A DNA stretch of 45,844 nucleotides from positions 5,468-51,311 of the forward strand of contig NZ_JADWYU010000220.1 of NCBI RefSeq assembly GCF_016786325.1, written 5' to 3'. Below the pieces are notes generated by a model, which saw only the letters and a list, made by a program, of their open reading frames with translations, had not been told where the DNA came from and searched no databases. Shown piece after piece: positions 9,730-21,698 of the stretch. This DNA is from Frankia nepalensis (GTDB lineage Bacteria > Actinomycetota > Actinomycetes > Frankiales > Frankiaceae). A program made the position numbers and the translations under genes. Position 1 is the stretch's first letter; each line of letters begins with the position of its first letter.

Positions 9730-9832
9730 CCGACGGCCAGGAGGTGCGCGCCCGAGCCTTTCCCGCGCACCCGGCGGCCGACGAGAACGTTCCTGGCGGA
9801 TGCGGGAAGGGCGACGGAGGGCGGAATCACCA

Positions 9833-12178
9833 ATGCGGCCGTTCGACGCCAATGACTACCGAAGCCGGGTACTTGGGCCGATCCACGCCCGCGGCGGTGT
9901 GGAGTACAGCGACCCGTTCGAGGTGTACGACATCCCGCTCGACGAGGCGGCAACCCTCGCGGACACCGCTGTCGCGGCCCAGATCGACGCGGTCTGGGCG
10001 TTCTGGCAGCGCAGCCGCGACCATCCCCGCTACCGCGGCGTCATCCTCGGCCTGCTGACCCACCACGACGAGCTCTCCGAGGCGCTGCGTACGCGCGCCT
10101 CGCGGACCGAGCTCGCCGAGCGGGTGCGCCTCGCCCGGTCCGAGCGCGAAGGAGAGCGCTTCAAGACCCTGGACGCGGCCGCGGCCCGGCTCGTCGAACG
10201 GTTCGGCGGGCTGCCCGAGGACAAGATCGCCGGACTGCGGGCGATCGCCGCGGCGGCCGGCGTGAGCGACGCCGAGTTCGAGGCCCGGATCGCCCACCAC
10301 AAGCGGCTCGGCGCGGGCGCGCCGGCCAGCACCGGGCGCCGCCAGGTGCCGGCGGAGGTGTTCCGCCAGGTCCGCGCCGACCTGGAGGAGCTGGGCCGGA
10401 TCGTCGGCGAGGACGCGCCCCGCAGCCTGTTCGAGCTGCTCGGGATCTCGCCTGGCGCCGACCGGGAGACGATCCGCGCGGTCCGCGAGGAGACGGCGGC
10501 CCGCAACCGCGCCCGCCGGCCCGACCGGCGCCGCGCGCTGATCGACGACCTGCTCGCCGCCGTGACCACCCTGCTCGTCGACGGCGACCCGGAGGCCTAC
10601 CTCGACGCGCTCGCCGCGGCGGCGGCCCAGGTGCTGCGCCCCCGGCTCAAGGCGGCGCTGCTCGTCGAGGACCGGCTCACCCCGGACGACGCCAGGACCC
10701 TGGTCAAACTGGCGCGCGACGAAGGGCTCGACCCGGCCAGGGCCACCGCCCTGGTCCGCTCCCTGGCCAGGGAGGAAGGCCTCGACGAGGCCGCCGTGGC
10801 CGCCGCGCTCGGTGGCGCCGCCGAGCCGCGGACCCAGCCTCGCCCGGCGGCCCCGGTCACTTCGACTCCGACACCGGCGCCGACGCCCCGGACGGAGCCT
10901 CGTCCGCTGCCGGCGCCGACGCCGCGGGTCGAGCCCCGCCCACCGGCCCGGCCCGGTCCGGGCACGACCGGCGCGCGGCCGGGCCATCCGGGCTGGCAGG
11001 AGGTGCTCGCCCAGGCCAGGGCCGCGCTGGAGGCCGGGACGCCGATCGCCGCCAGCGACGGGCGCGCGTTGGCGCAGGAGCTCGCGGGCGGCGCGCTGCC
11101 CCCGATCCGCCAGCTCGGCGAGGAGATCGAGGCCGCCGTCCGACGGTCCATCGAGTGGTGGGCCCAGCTCGTCAGGGCCGTCGCCGACGGCCGCCTCGAG
11201 CAGGCCAGCCGGCTGGCCGAGAGCCTCGCCAGGACTGGCCGCGACGTGCCCGGCCCGGAGGGCGCCGAGCTCGCCGAGGTGACCGCGCGGATCGAGGAGC
11301 GGCTGCGCCAGGCCGCCGAACTGGTCGCGTCCGCGCCCGCCGGGGGGCCGTCCGAGCGCGCCGCCGTGGCGCTCGCGGCGCTCGAGCTGGTGACCGACTC
11401 GGTCGCGGCGCGCGCCCTGCTCGCCGAGAGCCTCGCTCCGCCCTCGGCGCTGGCGGTCACGCGTGGCTCGGGCGCCGTCGAGGTGCGCTGGGCTCCGTCC
11501 CCCACCCCCGGGGTCCGTTACCGGGTCACGAGGATCGGAGCCGACGGCTCGGCCCGCACCGTCGGCTCGACCGAGGCGACCTACATCGAGGACGGCGGAG
11601 TGCGGGCCGGCGCCGACCTGCCCGGCTACGAGGTCCGCGCCGGCGTCGGCGACATCTGGTCGCGGCCCGCCGTGTGGCCCCAGGTGGTCGAGCCCGAGCC
11701 CGAGCCGCCGGCCGTCCCGGTGGCCGAGCCCGCGGCGGACCCCGCCGAACGGCCGGCGGCGGGCGCGCTGGCCGAGCCGCCCGTCAGCCCCGCCACGGCG
11801 ACGGACCCGGACGCCGGCGCGGACGACGACGAGCGCACCCGGCTGCTCACCCGCACCCCCGCCGACGCCCTCGAGCCGGCCCGTGACCTGGCCGTCGTCG
11901 CCGGCAGGCTTCGCTGGGTCTGGCCCGACGGCTGCACCGAGGTCTTCGTCGTCTGGCGGCCCGACGCGCCGCCGATCGCGGCGAACGACCCGGCCGCGCA
12001 GTCCCGCAAGGTCACCAACACTCGCTACGAGCTCGACGACGGCTTCGCCCTGCCCGCCGCGCGCCCGTTGCACGTCGCCGTCTTCGGCTGCCTGCGCGAT
12101 CCGGCCGGCCGCCTCGTCGTCGCCTCCCTCGCCGCCGCGCCGGCCCGCCGCTACCTGCCCGCCCGCGACCGCCTGTAG
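9833..12178 (+). CDS. Large Hsp70-partner candidate: J-like segment, helical region, two FN3-like modules
   Basis: About 781 residues; no single family is recognised. In order: a conserved-looking N-terminal segment (1-160) with Trp/Arg-rich helices; a short J-domain-like stretch (about 197-245) beginning SLFELLGISPGADRETIR; a helical segment with LTPDDARTLVKLARDEGLD; a Pro/Thr-rich linker (about 328-383); a long helical region around IEWWAQLVRAVADGRLEQA; an FN3-like beta domain (about 536-620, AVEVRWAPSPTPGVRYRV); an acidic Pro/Ala linker; and a second FN3-like domain at the end (about 681-780). Where a J domain has HPD this has RPD (ARRPDRRR), so stimulation of ATPase by the canonical mechanism is doubtful. 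No signal peptide. Directly after the Hsp70 gene, so joint function is inferred. Start ATG 9833 chosen over ATG 9800; GGAGGGCGG lies about 12 bases upstream. Confidence 0.75.
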   Translation: MRPFDANDYRSRVLGPIHARGGVEYSDPFEVYDIPLDEAATLADTAVAAQIDAVWAFWQRSRDHPRYRGVILGLLTHHDELSEALRTRASRTELAERVRLARSEREGERFKTLDAAAARLVERFGGLPEDKIAGLRAIAAAAGVSDAEFEARIAHHKRLGAGAPASTGRRQVPAEVFRQVRADLEELGRIVGEDAPRSLFELLGISPGADRETIRAVREETAARNRARRPDRRRALIDDLLAAVTTLLVDGDPEAYLDALAAAAAQVLRPRLKAALLVEDRLTPDDARTLVKLARDEGLDPARATALVRSLAREEGLDEAAVAAALGGAAEPRTQPRPAAPVTSTPTPAPTPRTEPRPLPAPTPRVEPRPPARPGPGTTGARPGHPGWQEVLAQARAALEAGTPIAASDGRALAQELAGGALPPIRQLGEEIEAAVRRSIEWWAQLVRAVADGRLEQASRLAESLARTGRDVPGPEGAELAEVTARIEERLRQAAELVASAPAGGPSERAAVALAALELVTDSVAARALLAESLAPPSALAVTRGSGAVEVRWAPSPTPGVRYRVTRIGADGSARTVGSTEATYIEDGGVRAGADLPGYEVRAGVGDIWSRPAVWPQVVEPEPEPPAVPVAEPAADPAERPAAGALAEPPVSPATATDPDAGADDDERTRLLTRTPADALEPARDLAVVAGRLRWVWPDGCTEVFVVWRPDAPPIAANDPAAQSRKVTNTRYELDDGFALPAARPLHVAVFGCLRDPAGRLVVASLAAAPARRYLPARDRL

Positions 12179-12234: not shown

Positions 12235-12933
12235 GTGAGCACAGAGACCGGTGTCCCCGCGGATGCCGAGGGCTCGGCGGGCTCGGCGCCCGCGCGCCCC
12301 GCCGGCCCGGCTGGCGTCGCGGAACCGGACCGGCCACCGGCCCGGTCCGGGCCGACCGACGCGCAGGTCGTAGCCCGCTCGGTCGGCGCGCCCGCGGACT
12401 TCGCGGCGCTGTTCGACCGGCACGCGCCGGCGATCCATCGCTACCTGGCCCGCCGGGCCGGCCCCCAGGTCGCCGACGACCTGGTGGCCTCGACCTTCCT
12501 GGTCGCCTTCGAGCGGCGGGCCAGTTACGACGGCGCCAGGGCCGACGCGCGCCCCTGGCTGTACGGCATCGCCTCCAACCTCCTCGGCCGGTTCCACCGG
12601 GACGAGGAGCGCAGGTTGCGGGCCTACGCCCGCGCCGGCGTCGACGGGCTGGCCGAGGACGGGATCGAGCGCGCCCTGGAACGGGCGGACGCTCAGGCGT
12701 CGAAGCGAGCCGTCGCGGCGGCGGTGGCCGAGCTGTCCCCCGAGGACCGGGACGTGCTGCTGCTGTTCGCCTGGGCCGCCCTCTCCTACGCCGAGATCGC
12801 CGAGGCGGTCGGCATCCCGCTCGGGACCGTGCGCTCACGACTGAACCGCGCGCGCCGCCGCCTGCGCGCCGCCCTCGGCGCCGACGGCCCCGCCACGGCC
12901 CCGCGCCTGATCAAGGAGAGCCACCATGGATGA
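12235..12933 (+). CDS. ECF-type RNA polymerase sigma factor
   Basis: Sigma-70 family group IV factor, 232 residues, directing RNA polymerase to a specific regulon. The N-terminal 45 residues are Pro/Ala/Gly-rich. Region 2 runs from FAALFDRHAPAIHRYLARR through PWLYGIASNLLGRFHRDEER. Region 4 is LSPEDRDVLLLFAWAALSYAEIAEAVGIPLGTVRSRL with a clear helix-turn-helix. There is no C-terminal extension. The GTG start lies in an unusually AT-rich spot (12224-12232), which may be the promoter, possibly leaderless. The stop overlaps the next start by 8 bases, indicating translational coupling with the membrane protein that follows, which is its likely regulator. Confidence 0.9.
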   Translation: MSTETGVPADAEGSAGSAPARPAGPAGVAEPDRPPARSGPTDAQVVARSVGAPADFAALFDRHAPAIHRYLARRAGPQVADDLVASTFLVAFERRASYDGARADARPWLYGIASNLLGRFHRDEERRLRAYARAGVDGLAEDGIERALERADAQASKRAVAAAVAELSPEDRDVLLLFAWAALSYAEIAEAVGIPLGTVRSRLNRARRRLRAALGADGPATAPRLIKESHHG

Positions 12934-14110
12934 CAGCCTGCCGGGGACCCCGGCGGACGAGTCGGCCGCCCGCGCCGAGCTCGCGCCGCTGGCGTCGCTG
13001 TGGACGGACGTGGCGGAGCCAGCCCCCGCCCAGCTCGCCCAGGCCCGCCGACGCCTCCTGGACCGCGTGGCGGCCGTGGACGAGTCCCCGGAGCCGGGCG
13101 CCACGGTCACCGGCGCCACGGCGCGGCGGCGCGGCCGGCGGCGCCGGTTCGTCACGGCGCGCCGGGCGGTGGCGGTCGCGGTCGCCGCGGTGGTCGCGGC
13201 CGCCGGCCTCTTCGCGGTCGACACCCTGCGCGTGGGCGGCTCGGCCGGGGCCACGGCGGAGGCGGCGACGCTGCTGGAGCAGGCGGCCGTCAACTCGGCG
13301 GGGACGGCCGACCCGCCGGTCGGCCCCGCCCAGTACCGGAAGATCACGGTAAGGGCGGTGTGGTCGTCCACCGTGAACGACGAGCACGGCGACGAGGTCA
13401 CCTGGCTGGACGAGGAGATCATCGAGACCTGGATCCCCGCCGACCCGGCGAGGCCATGGGTCCTGCGCAGGAGCGGCCGTCAGCCGGTGCACTGGTTCGA
13501 CCCGGCCGACGAGGCCGCCGTCCGGGGAATGGGATTCATGACGCCACCCCAGCCGACGCTGATCCGCGCGGCCGGCGGCGCGTTCTACGGCCCGGCTGCC
13601 CCCGGCTGGCAGAACCCGACGCCCGACTTCGTCGCCAGCCTGCCACGCGACCCGGGTCAGCTCCTCGACCGGATCTACCGCGACTCGAAGGGCCAGGGAA
13701 GGTCGAGGCACGGCGAGGCGCTGGTGTTCATCGCCGACCTGCTGCGGGGCGGGTTCGTGCCGGTGGACCTGCGGGCCGCCCTGTTCCGCGCGGCGACAGG
13801 CATTCCCGGGGTGGAGGTGACCGACCATGCCGCGAACCTGGCCGGCCGGGCCGGCGTCGCGATCGGCCGGGACGAGGGCGGCGACACCCGTCAGGAGATC
13901 ATCTTCGATCCGGCGACCGGCGAGTACATCGGCGAGCGGGAGGTCGTCCTGCGCGACGGCTGGATGTCCGGCGTGCCGGCGGGTACCGCGATCTCCTACA
14001 CGGCCGTGACCACCGAGGTGGTTGACTCCACCCCGGACGGCCCGGAGATCCGTGACCCGGTACCGACCAAGGCTCCCGAGAGCGGGCAGCCGGCGAGCCC
14101 GACGGGCTGA
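12926..14110 (+). CDS. CU044_5270-family membrane protein, probable regulator of the ECF sigma factor
   Basis: 394 residues. A short cytoplasmic N-terminus (1-75, LASLWTDVAEPAPAQLAQAR) is followed by an Arg-rich stretch, one transmembrane helix (about 78-98, AVAVAVAAVVAAAGLFAV) and an extracytoplasmic domain of about 290 residues. This is the usual plan of the actinobacterial CU044_5270 family, routinely encoded after an ECF sigma factor. AAGGAGAG at 12913-12920 gives a strong ribosome site for ATG 12926. By context it is an anti-sigma or sensor, but no zinc-binding HxxxCxxC motif is present, so the mechanism differs from ZAS anti-sigma factors. Function is inferred from position. Confidence 0.8.
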   Translation: MDDSLPGTPADESAARAELAPLASLWTDVAEPAPAQLAQARRRLLDRVAAVDESPEPGATVTGATARRRGRRRRFVTARRAVAVAVAAVVAAAGLFAVDTLRVGGSAGATAEAATLLEQAAVNSAGTADPPVGPAQYRKITVRAVWSSTVNDEHGDEVTWLDEEIIETWIPADPARPWVLRRSGRQPVHWFDPADEAAVRGMGFMTPPQPTLIRAAGGAFYGPAAPGWQNPTPDFVASLPRDPGQLLDRIYRDSKGQGRSRHGEALVFIADLLRGGFVPVDLRAALFRAATGIPGVEVTDHAANLAGRAGVAIGRDEGGDTRQEIIFDPATGEYIGEREVVLRDGWMSGVPAGTAISYTAVTTEVVDSTPDGPEIRDPVPTKAPESGQPASPTG

Positions 14111-18278: not shown

Positions 18279-19883
18279 TCACCGGGGCCGGTCGTGGTCG
18301 GGCGCGTTCCTCGCGGAGGCGGGCGACGGCGCCGGCGCGGAGTCGCCCGACTGGTGCCAGCCGAGGGCGCGCAGGCCGGACAGGACGGCGAGCGCGACCA
18401 GGAGGGCCAGCATGGCGACCTTGGCCGGGCCGAGGACCCAGGCGGCGAGACTGCTGCGCTCCCGGGTGAGCAGGATCGTCGCGGCGAACGACGACGGAAC
18501 GGCGATGACCGCCACGGCGTCGGGGCCGAGCTCGAACGGCAGCGCCGCCAGGGCCACGGCCAGCGCCATCAGCACGAGGATGGCGACGGTCACCCGGGAG
18601 ACGTCGGGTGAGATCGACAGGCCGACGGCGAGCTGGGCCCGGCTCGGACGGCGCACGTCTGTCGTGTAGTACGCGTAGACCTCCCGGTTGTGCTGCACGT
18701 CCTCGACGTAGGTCCGCTCGACCGGGCGGCCGAGCAGGTCGAGGACGACCGGGTGGCTGATCTCGATGCTCGAGTCGTCGGTGCCGATGCTGACGTGATA
18801 GCTGCCGAAGCTGCCAGGGTCGAGGTCGAGCAGCGCGACCGGCGCCAGCGCGACCGCGCCGGCCACGCGCCGCCACCGCCAGCCGCGGCTCGCGAGCACC
18901 GGCGCGGGGGGACGGCGGCTCAGGGCCGCCCGGCGTTCCTCGGTCATCTTGATGAGGCTGGGCCGGTACGGGTCCAGGGTGACCGCGGCCAGGGCCTCCC
19001 AGCGCCGGCCGTACTCGGCGACCGTCGAGAGCACCGGCACGGCGGCGGGCCCGGCCGTGGCGAGGTCGCCGACCCAGTCGACGAACGCGGCCAGGTAGCC
19101 CTCGATGTCGTCGAGGCCCAGCGGGGTGGGCACGTCCGGGTCGCGCCACAGCTCGCCGACGGCGATCAGCAGCGTGTCCGCGCTGGACAGCGGGTCGAAC
19201 GGCTCGTCGAGGGCCGCGACCAGCTCGCGCTGCGCGGGCGCGGCGAGCGCCGCCCAGCGACGCAGCCTCGGCTCGGGCACCGCCAGGTCCGCCGACTGCT
19301 CCAGGTAGGTGCGCAGCTCGCCGACGGCCAGCGGACGGCGCCGGCTCGGCGAGACGAGCCCGAGGTGGTTGCCGGAAAGCTTCCCTGGCCGGAACCGGGA
19401 GATGGCGTCCACGACCCGGCGCACGGTCGGCGCCGCCGGCAGGCCGATCTCCTCGGCGAGCCGCGTGACGACGTTGCCCTGCAGGGCCACCGAGGTGGGG
19501 TAGGGCACCAGGTGGGCGGCGTCACCGCCAGGGCCGGCGAGGTCGAAGGCGACCAGCGCCCGCTTCGGCAGCGTGGACAGCGGAAGCAGGACGGACACCT
19601 CGGCCGGCAGATGGCCGCGGGTGTCGACCCGGCCGGTCGGCGGGACGACGGCGGCGAGCAGGCCGTCCAGCGGCCCCCAGTTGACCGACCGGGCCAGCCG
19701 CGCGCGGTTCGCCGACAGCAGGGTGAACTGGTCGACGACCCGCCGGCGCAGGCCGCGGAACTCCTCCGGCGGCGCGAGCAGCGTCGTGGTCACCTCGTCG
19801 ACGTCGGTCAGGTCGAGGACCGGCGCCTCCGACGCGTCGTCCCGCCGCCGCCACCTGCGCGCGGGGTCATCCGCGGCTGTCAT
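18279..19883 (-). CDS. Hypothetical membrane protein, 534 residues
   Basis: I do not recognise the family. The N-terminal ~400 residues look soluble and mostly helical, with many Arg and Leu and an aromatic YHVSIGTDDSSIEISHP segment followed by RTYVEDVQHNREVYAYYTTD. The last ~110 residues contain three hydrophobic segments (about 430-455, 458-478, 484-510), including VAILVLMALAVALAALPF and VAMLALLVALAVL. A Ser/Pro/Asp-rich tail follows. The domain therefore probably sits on the cytoplasmic face of a membrane anchor. ATG at 19881-19883 has ATAGG four bases upstream. It is convergent with ackA and divergent from the small gene at 20048. Base composition matches the neighbours, so there is no sign of recent transfer. 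Confidence 0.8.
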   Translation of the reverse strand: MTAADDPARRWRRRDDASEAPVLDLTDVDEVTTTLLAPPEEFRGLRRRVVDQFTLLSANRARLARSVNWGPLDGLLAAVVPPTGRVDTRGHLPAEVSVLLPLSTLPKRALVAFDLAGPGGDAAHLVPYPTSVALQGNVVTRLAEEIGLPAAPTVRRVVDAISRFRPGKLSGNHLGLVSPSRRRPLAVGELRTYLEQSADLAVPEPRLRRWAALAAPAQRELVAALDEPFDPLSSADTLLIAVGELWRDPDVPTPLGLDDIEGYLAAFVDWVGDLATAGPAAVPVLSTVAEYGRRWEALAAVTLDPYRPSLIKMTEERRAALSRRPPAPVLASRGWRWRRVAGAVALAPVALLDLDPGSFGSYHVSIGTDDSSIEISHPVVLDLLGRPVERTYVEDVQHNREVYAYYTTDVRRPSRAQLAVGLSISPDVSRVTVAILVLMALAVALAALPFELGPDAVAVIAVPSSFAATILLTRERSSLAAWVLGPAKVAMLALLVALAVLSGLRALGWHQSGDSAPAPSPASARNAPDHDRPR

Positions 19884-19980
19884 CGTGCCTATCCGCCCGC
19901 TCGAGTAGCCAGAAGGTGGTCACTGCCCGTGGTCACCGGTGCAGACTAGGGCATATCGACCGACGGATGCGCTCGTGCCG

Positions 19981-20009
19981 CTGACGGGTGCGTCGCGGCG
20001 CGCTAGCCT
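19981..20009 (+). promoter_or_regulatory. Sigma-A type promoter (-35 CTGACG, 17 bases, -10 TAGCCT)
   Basis: CTGACG at 19981-19986 and TAGCCT at 20004-20009 are separated by 17 bases, close to the housekeeping actinobacterial consensus TTGAC-N17/18-TANNNT. The predicted start near 20016 gives a leader of about 32 bases to the ATG at 20048. It is one of the two best -35/-10 pairs in the window. Confidence 0.55.
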
Positions 20010-20047: not shown

Positions 20048-20212
20048 ATGCCGAAGAACTTCGGTCTCGGTGTCTCGGTGCGCACGCACCCGCGTGGCGC
20101 CGGCCGCTCCCTCGTCCGGCTCGCCCGCCGGGACCTCTGGCAGCGACTCGACCGGAGCATGACCTTCCGGGGCCGTGCCGTCGACCCCACGTCGCCCAAA
20201 GCGGAGGGCTGA
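20048..20212 (+). CDS. Candidate small basic protein, 54 residues
   Basis: ATG at 20048 opens a 54-residue frame starting MPKNFGLGVSVRTHPRGAG and containing LVRLARRDLWQRLDRSMTFR. It is Arg-rich and amphipathic, with no membrane segment. Reasons to take it as real: about 89% G/C at third codon positions with mixed first and second positions; a good promoter 38 bases upstream; and a strong hairpin 21 bases after the stop, so it is a complete mini transcription unit. The ribosome site is weak (GGACGGA). No family is recognised. An alternative is a small regulatory RNA. It is divergent from the 534-residue membrane protein. Confidence 0.5.
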   Translation: MPKNFGLGVSVRTHPRGAGRSLVRLARRDLWQRLDRSMTFRGRAVDPTSPKAEG

Positions 20213-20233
20213 GCGGGCTGGGTGAACGTGGTC

Positions 20234-20250
20234 GCCGCCCTTCGGGCGGC
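20234..20250 (+). terminator. Hairpin terminator after the small gene
   Basis: GCCGCCC (20234-20240) and GGGCGGC (20244-20250) pair perfectly around TTC, or equivalently form a very stable C(UUCG)G tetraloop. It lies 21 bases after the small-gene stop. Confidence 0.55.
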
Positions 20251-20324: not shown

Positions 20325-20353
20325 CGGGTGGTTGCCCGACCGGGTGGTTGATG

Positions 20354-20522
20354 TTCGCGGTGGCGTGAGGGTCTCAGCGGTCGCGTGAGGGCGTTCGCGG
20401 GGACGTTGGGTCTTCGCGGGGACGTGGAATGTTCGCGGTGGCGTGGGGCCTTCGTGGTCGCTGAGGGCCTTCGCGGTGGCGCGGGGATGCCCGTGGTGAC
20501 GCGGGGATTTTCGCGGGGGCGG
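20354..20522. repeat. Imperfect 19-20 bp tandem repeat, about 8.5 units
   Basis: Units begin TTCGCGGTGGCGTGGGGCC or close variants (TTCGCGGGGACGTGGAATG, TTCGTGGTCGCTGAGGGCC). Successive units are 19 or 20 bases and share the core TTCGCGG-N3-CG-N-GGGG. The array sits between the small gene's hairpins and the dapA promoter, does not encode a plausible protein and has no spacers, so it is not a CRISPR array. It shows clear strand asymmetry (G- and T-rich on +). Function is unknown: possibly a protein-binding array or a slipped-strand minisatellite. Confidence 0.75.
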
Positions 20523-20753: not shown

Positions 20754-21698
20754 ATGTCAGTGTTGCCCGTGGCGCCGTTCGGGCGCCTGATCACCGCCAT
20801 GGTGACGCCGTTCCTCCCGGACGGCGGCCTCGACCTCGACGGCGCGGCCGCCCTGGCGAGCCACCTGGTGGACGCGGGCAACGACGGCCTGGTGATCAGT
20901 GGGACCACCGGTGAGTCGCCGACCACCTCCGACGCGGAGAAGGACCTGCTGCTGCGCGCCGTGCTCGAGGCGGTCGGCGACCGCGCGGCCGTCCTCGCGG
21001 GCGTGGGCACCAACGACACGCGCCACACCATCGAGCTCGCCAGGTCGGCCGAGCGGGCAGGCGCGCACGGCCTGCTGGTGGTGACGCCGTACTACAGCAA
21101 GCCGCCGCAGGCCGGCCTCGCCGCGCACTTCCGCGCGGTCGCCGACGCCACCGGACTGCCGGTGATGATCTACGACATTCCGGGGCGGACCGGGGTGCCG
21201 GTGCTCACCGAAACCATGGTGGCGCTCGCCGAGCACCCGCGCATCGTCGCGGTGAAGGACGCCAAGGCCGACCTGGAGGAGTCCTCCTGGGTCATGGCCA
21301 GGACCGATCTTGCCTACTACTCCGGCGACGACGTGCTGACCCTTCCGTTCCTCGCGGTCGGTGCCGTCGGTCTCGTCAGCGTGGCCGCGCACGTCGCGGC
21401 GCCGGCGCTGGCCGCCATGATCGCGGCGTTCGACGCCGGCGACCCGGTGGCGGCCCGGCGGCTGCACCAGGACCTGCTGCCCATTTTCAAGGGCATTTTC
21501 CGAACTCAGGGAGTGATTACCACGAAGGCCGCTTTGACCCTGCGAGGGCTGCCCGCCGGCCCGGTCCGCCCGCCGCTGGCGGACGCGACCGAGGCGGAGA
21601 TCGCGCAGCTGCGCCTCGACCTGGCCGCCGCGGTTCTGGAACCGCCGGGAAGCGAGGCGCGGGCCACCGCGCCGGTCGCGGCTGGCGTGGCTTCATGA
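20754..21698 (+). CDS. dapA: 4-hydroxy-tetrahydrodipicolinate synthase
   Basis: Condenses pyruvate with aspartate semialdehyde, the committed step to lysine and diaminopimelate. A TIM-barrel aldolase of 314 residues. Visible: substrate motif GTTGES (from residue 50), VVTPYYSKPPQAGL with the catalytic Tyr, YDIPGRTG, and the Schiff-base lysine K168 in IVAVKDAKADL. ATG 20754 is preferred because a -10 lies 7 bases before it; in-frame GTG 20745 and ATG 20724 are possible. The stop overlaps the RNase J start by 4 bases (ATGA), so the two are translationally coupled, as in other actinobacteria. Third-position GC drops visibly around 21483-21548. Confidence 0.95.
   Translation: MSVLPVAPFGRLITAMVTPFLPDGGLDLDGAAALASHLVDAGNDGLVISGTTGESPTTSDAEKDLLLRAVLEAVGDRAAVLAGVGTNDTRHTIELARSAERAGAHGLLVVTPYYSKPPQAGLAAHFRAVADATGLPVMIYDIPGRTGVPVLTETMVALAEHPRIVAVKDAKADLEESSWVMARTDLAYYSGDDVLTLPFLAVGAVGLVSVAAHVAAPALAAMIAAFDAGDPVAARRLHQDLLPIFKGIFRTQGVITTKAALTLRGLPAGPVRPPLADATEAEIAQLRLDLAAAVLEPPGSEARATAPVAAGVAS

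Follow-up and report, generated by a model that had tools for sequence, protein, structure and literature searches.

A conserved small-protein gene of the Frankiaceae and its probable pairing with a neighbouring membrane-protein gene

The 45,844-nt stretch of Frankia nepalensis DNA analysed here (the window) contains a 54-codon reading frame, sp54, that by its pattern of sequence change is a genuine conserved protein-coding gene of Frankiaceae. It adjoins memb, the gene of a 534-aa membrane protein. The two are kept, rearranged and lost together, and on this comparative evidence they probably work as a pair. We favor, as a rather likely reading, that sp54 is a small cytoplasmic partner dedicated to memb, i.e. 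an accessory or regulatory subunit of an undescribed module. The apparently new gene pair, a conserved small gene with a membrane-protein gene, adds a small protein under selection to this actinorhizal nitrogen-fixing family and provides a conserved membrane protein with a testable partner. The annotation gap could be filled from conservation alone. The features discussed below are collected in Table 1.

Table 1. Features of the sp54 region and of two family loci without memb (window coordinates unless a locus is named)
Feature	Coordinates	Strand	Remarks
memb	18279..19883	-	534 aa; no described family; proposed sp54 partner
Possible memb -10 element	19943..19948	-	TAGTCT on the minus strand, assigned by eye; L001-L004 and L010 retain GCAGACTAG
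Predicted sp54 promoter	19981..20009	+	CTGACG 19981-19986, TAGCCT 20004-20009, 17 bases between
sp54	20048..20212	+	ATG 20048, TGA 20212; 54 aa; core residues 1-38, variable tail
Hairpin GCCGCCC-TTC-GGGCGGC	20234..20250	+	7 bp, TTC loop; starts 21 bases past the sp54 stop
dapA	20754..21698	+	next gene downstream in the family; Pfam DHDPS, 1.9e-79; start codon read by eye
DUF222-HNH genes at the place of memb	L097 7440-9194; L075 4482-6023		two family genomes, G018 and G021

RESULTS

The sp54 reading frame is under selection

The region between 17000 and 23500 is overlapped by 44 open reading frames of at least 40 aa, so ORF length by itself is no proof of a gene. The GC content of sp54 at codon positions 1, 2 and 3 is 0.72, 0.59 and 0.89, respectively, the last value being the one given in the original prediction. 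With the 54 residues as query, matches were obtained in 28 of 58 genomes, comprising all 8 from the genus of the window, 20 of 27 from the rest of the family and none of 23 from other families. With a profile, 29 of the 35 family genomes were matched, one of them (G021) only partially. Reading of the ORFs yielded 29 intact copies in 28 of the 35 genomes, a weak match (L030) having been excluded before counting. The memb-sp54 locus of one genome (G026) is found on two contigs of the same assembly (L022 and L029), perhaps an assembly duplicate.

The core of the protein reads MPKN[FY]GxGV ... RL[GA]R[RIV][ED]LWxRLDR[NS]M. Residues M1, P2, K3, N4, G6, G8, R24, L25, R27, L30, W31, R33, L34, D35, R36 and M38 are invariant in the alignment, which holds 26 of the 29 copies. 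Across codons 1-38 mean pS was 0.52 and mean pN 0.16, while in the low-complexity tail the two were equal (0.53 and 0.54), as expected of an unconstrained segment; dN/dS ranged from 0.03 to 0.61 in the 12 pairs given. Stops interrupt the five alternative frames in 5 to 23 of the 29 copies. This is the pattern of purifying selection acting on the core (codons 1-38). The gene predicted at this position was thus borne out, as its frame is kept and synonymous change exceeds non-synonymous change; breakage of the frame in relatives was looked for, and all 29 copies were intact.

The protein contains 10 Arg and 2 Lys residues versus 4 Asp/Glu, giving a net charge of +8. It has no membrane helix and is predicted to be soluble and basic. 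The structural model is weak (mean pLDDT 61.5) and consists of one helix at residues 21-44. The peptide had been described as Arg-rich and amphipathic. The former holds, whereas the hydrophobic moment of an 18-residue segment was no better than that of shuffled sequences, 32-78% of which matched it in six copies (a misplaced L021 segment was left out).

Neither sp54 nor memb matched a Pfam or NCBIfam family, and a sequence search of sp54 against solved structures gave nothing useful. The window contained no Rfam match at the gathering threshold and no tRNA. The sp54 profile gave weak matches in 8 of 358 genomes of other families (E from 1.7e-4 to 6e-3); none of these has an MPKN start or a memb homolog nearby, and on reading they were rejected as relatives of sp54.

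Signals flanking sp54

No strong Shine-Dalgarno sequence precedes the sp54 start codon; a GGACGG-like stretch recurs there by eye. The hexamers of the proposed promoter were present as described, and xTGACG-N17-TA[AG]CCT had its sole match in the window at this site when both strands were scanned. The same motif, with differing spacer sequences, lies at -67 to -181 upstream of sp54 in 5 of the 8 genomes from the genus. Two of the carriers (L003 and L004) are close relatives, leaving at most 4 independent sequences, and the motif never occurred in 16000 shuffled upstream regions. More broadly, TAnnCTG is found within 130 bases of the sp54 start in 25 of 29 copies, mostly at -36 to -56. A sigma-70 consensus scan found no promoter, so the call is based on conservation of the upstream motif rather than on the sigma-70 consensus. 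This footprint suggests that sp54 has its own promoter.

The hairpin was also found where it had been predicted, although a role as terminator did not stand up. It has no U-tract, and a consensus terminator scan did not detect it. Its folding z-score depended on the length folded (-2.7 at 63 nt and -0.96 at 81 nt). Among 11 downstream regions folded, only that of L003 besides the window's had a z-score below -2, and the 10 relatives shared no common hairpin. As the U-tract is absent and the structure is not conserved, the terminator assignment is not supported. The sp54-dapA gap also contains a degenerate, TTCGCGG-rich tandem repeat with a 38-base unit (3.5 copies, 20353-20486).

The neighboring membrane protein

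Hydropathy and an AlphaFold2 model of low confidence (mean pLDDT 59.9) agree on three C-terminal hydrophobic helices in memb, at about residues 426-447, 454-472 and 478-506. In the model these helices follow a long soluble N-terminal part and a beta-rich stretch. The gene was detected in 28 of the 35 family genomes, and the protein is 64-77% identical across genera. Comparison with distant homologs left 14 invariant columns, including the R-E pair in RERSSL, located between the second and third helices; this TM2-TM3 stretch reads RERSSLA in Frankiaceae and RE..[ST].L elsewhere.

A sequence search of memb against solved structures returned one match only, at E 0.61, which was not useful. Foldseek with the low-confidence model gave no match at E<=0.001, the best rows having TM values of 0.10-0.15. 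One of the 23 members aligned matched Pfam Sdh_cyt at E = 0.1, below the cut-off. The trait in common is three hydrophobic helices, and homology to Sdh_cyt has no support. Pfam gave no match at E<=0.01 to two other long ORFs of the window, 9800-12178 (792 aa) and 12926-14110 (394 aa).

memb and sp54 remain adjacent through a change of layout

In the 27 family genomes where one contig carries both genes, they are always adjacent; as these genomes are related, the counts are not mutually independent. The layout differs among genera. In all 8 genomes of the window's genus the genes diverge head to head, whereas in all 19 genomes outside it sp54 follows memb on the same strand, with gaps of 21-163 nt in the 17 co-directional loci measured (three other genera). 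The locus is chromosomal and has the fixed order thyX/ack-memb-sp54-dapA-rnj-ftsK. In two further genomes the pair is split by contig ends. In G025 memb ends 8 nt before the end of a contig and the dapA contig opens with the last residues of sp54, while the contig of G034 stops 119 nt upstream of sp54 within bases that encode the last residues and stop codon of memb. These are therefore not true exceptions; 29 genomes have both genes, and no family genome with intact memb is without sp54.

The original prediction had described sp54 as divergent from an unknown membrane protein. This is correct within the genus but does not extend beyond it, and the notion of a self-contained unit is not supported. 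In the three other genera that carry it, sp54 sits directly behind memb.

Loss of the pair

Four family loci without memb were read, and in each of them sp54 was gone or decayed. G016, a one-contig genome, has neither gene, and its ack-dapA gap holds no remnant of the motif. Both genes are likewise absent from G011, in which dapA lies close behind thyX. Remnants of the sp54 frame persist in G021, where the core motif is missing, and in G018, where only the two ends are left. In these last two genomes a DUF222-HNH gene on the opposite strand takes the position of memb in the ack-dapA interval. As this gene is shared by G018 and G021, the four loci represent at least two independent losses. G010 and G013, which had no dapA match at 1e-60, are outside this count. 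Joint loss, together with the conserved adjacency, supports the functional link to the membrane protein that had been proposed. dapA stays in position where memb and sp54 have been lost, which makes it an unlikely partner of sp54.

Four of five distant memb homologs are followed by small MxKNxG proteins

Homologs of memb were detected in at least 3 of 358 genomes of other families (G067, G145 and G374) and in two plasmid records; since the class-wide search scores the best few candidates per genome, memb may be commoner than this count. Behind 4 of these 5 homologs lies a small ORF on the same strand that begins M[AP]KNTGR, at gaps of about 49-90 nt or with a 20-nt overlap. The 55-aa MAKNTGR protein of G067 overlaps the end of memb by 20 nt. 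In G374 a 54-aa MAKNTGRG protein starts 90 nt past memb, or 48 nt past it should an upstream ATG be the start. Plasmid pKRAD01 of Kineococcus has an annotated 55-aa MAKNTGR protein 67 nt past memb, and G145 a 55-aa MPKNTGRG ORF 49 nt past a memb that is without about 100 residues. No ORF of the MxKNxG type lies behind the Streptomyces homolog.

The small proteins of G067, G374 and Kineococcus match the PADLOC family PDC-S38 (E values of 2e-22, 6e-23 and 8e-21, respectively). The G145 ORF had no PDC-S38 match, although its score against a model of that family exceeded those of all 400 shuffled sequences. PDC-S38 was detected in 2 of 60 genomes of this class and in none of 14 controls. Because the family is this rare, its three occurrences behind memb are not due to chance. 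Next to these pairs we noted a protein kinase gene after the pair in pKRAD01 (L198, 4700-5524) and a Hypoth_Ymh (PF09509) gene before the pair in G374 (L180, 3106-3849).

DISCUSSION

Function of the pair

If sp54 is a dedicated partner of memb, its MPKNxGxGV N-terminus and basic helix (LWxRLDRNM) would bind the membrane protein, either at the large cytoplasmic part or at the conserved TM2-TM3 stretch. Binding might serve to assemble, stabilize or gate memb, and a separate promoter would allow sp54 to be made in excess of it. The small number of losses, the weak structural model of sp54, its lack of amphipathicity above chance and the presence of dapA on its other side count against this interpretation, as do the Streptomyces memb homolog with no small ORF of this type behind it and the shortened memb of G145.

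The main rival is a toxin-antitoxin or immunity pair, in which memb would be a toxic or abortive-infection effector acting on membranes, with sp54 as its antitoxin or trigger, kept in excess by its own promoter. The presence of sp54 in every family genome with intact memb (29) speaks for such a pair, and three of the distant small partners match a phage-defense candidate. Outside Frankiaceae, moreover, the pair is found on the Kineococcus plasmid or beside the Hypoth_Ymh gene. However, the fixed ack-dapA locus and the conservation of memb across genera are unlike a mobile module, and neither protein of the window matches a defense model. The sp54 remnants that persist without memb fit this or another reading alike. 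On balance we consider a toxin-antitoxin pair unlikely.

Alternatively, sp54 could be an independent basic nucleic-acid-binding protein whose proximity to memb is historical. Its net charge, Arg richness and variable low-complexity tail would suit such a role, but an independent protein would not be expected to disappear or decay jointly with memb, or to stay next to it through a change of layout. We regard this as improbable, somewhat more so than an antitoxin role. A leader peptide or attenuator of dapA is very improbable. Although dapA lies downstream on the same strand in the mapped sp54 loci, what is conserved in sp54 is the amino acids and not the codons or an RNA structure. The distance and sequence between the two genes vary with no common hairpin, and dapA outlasts sp54 where the latter is lost, so we reject this role. 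Finally, long ORFs are common in this GC-rich region and sp54 matches no database family, yet a chance ORF has virtually no likelihood given that the frame is conserved with synonymous change across 28 genomes (over the core, pN below pS in 404 of 406 pairs).

Comparison with known systems

PDC-S38 (PDLC05010), also represented by phrog_12550, is a widespread small protein with no listing to date other than as a phage-defense candidate. Like sp54 it is about 55 aa long, basic and starts with MxKNxG; all 29 copies of sp54 start with MPKN[FY]G. By residue shuffling of the window's sp54, the chance of K3-N4-G6 is about 0.9e-4. PDC-S38 also has RSQ, TGRF and FKGVR stretches, which sp54 does not. 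The profile HMMs of PDC-S38 and phrog_12550 gave no match to sp54 at E<=1; L012 had no match among the phrogs at E<=1, and neither L012 nor L024 had one in PADLOC at E<=10. Alignment of the sp54 and PDC-S38 profiles with hhalign covered 13 N-terminal columns with a probability of 3.2%, which is not significant. Against a 17-row PDC-S38 model with 400 shuffles, the score was reached in fewer than 5% of shuffles for 14 of 29 sp54 copies and in up to 78% for the others. Model matches thus do not support membership of sp54 in PDC-S38. A search of the literature outside subscription journals and preprints found no paper on sp54 or PDC-S38.

The settings also differ, sp54 occupying a fixed chromosomal locus and not the mobile or defense-island setting of PDC-S38. 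PDC-S38 occurs without memb in 69 plasmid and 15 phage records, and tblastn of the 14 loci read with five memb homologs gave no match at E<=0.1. Neighbors of PDC-S38 include HTH/ImmA, SIR2 and TIR proteins, and on plasmids it recurs beside genes of defense type (SAVED, SIR2-TIR, retron HNH, ThiF and WYL). The position behind a homologous gene and the MxKNxG start nonetheless suggest common descent. We tentatively propose an undescribed actinobacterial module that couples a membrane protein, with its three helices at the C-terminus, to a small MxKNxG protein, the latter being PDC-S38 outside the family. Frankiaceae would possess a domesticated version at a core locus, with sp54 as a PDC-S38 descendant that has become unrecognizable by divergence except at its N-terminus. 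The pair in any case offers a handle on PDC-S38, and if the domestication proposal is true, memb would be the first partner protein for this orphan defense candidate.

AcrZ, CydX and KdpF are small subunits of bacterial membrane proteins, each with its own membrane helix. sp54 differs from them in being predicted soluble and basic and in having a neighbor of no described family. It resembles them in being encoded by a small gene next to or downstream of that for a large membrane protein, in its conserved core and, as we propose, in its dedication to that partner.
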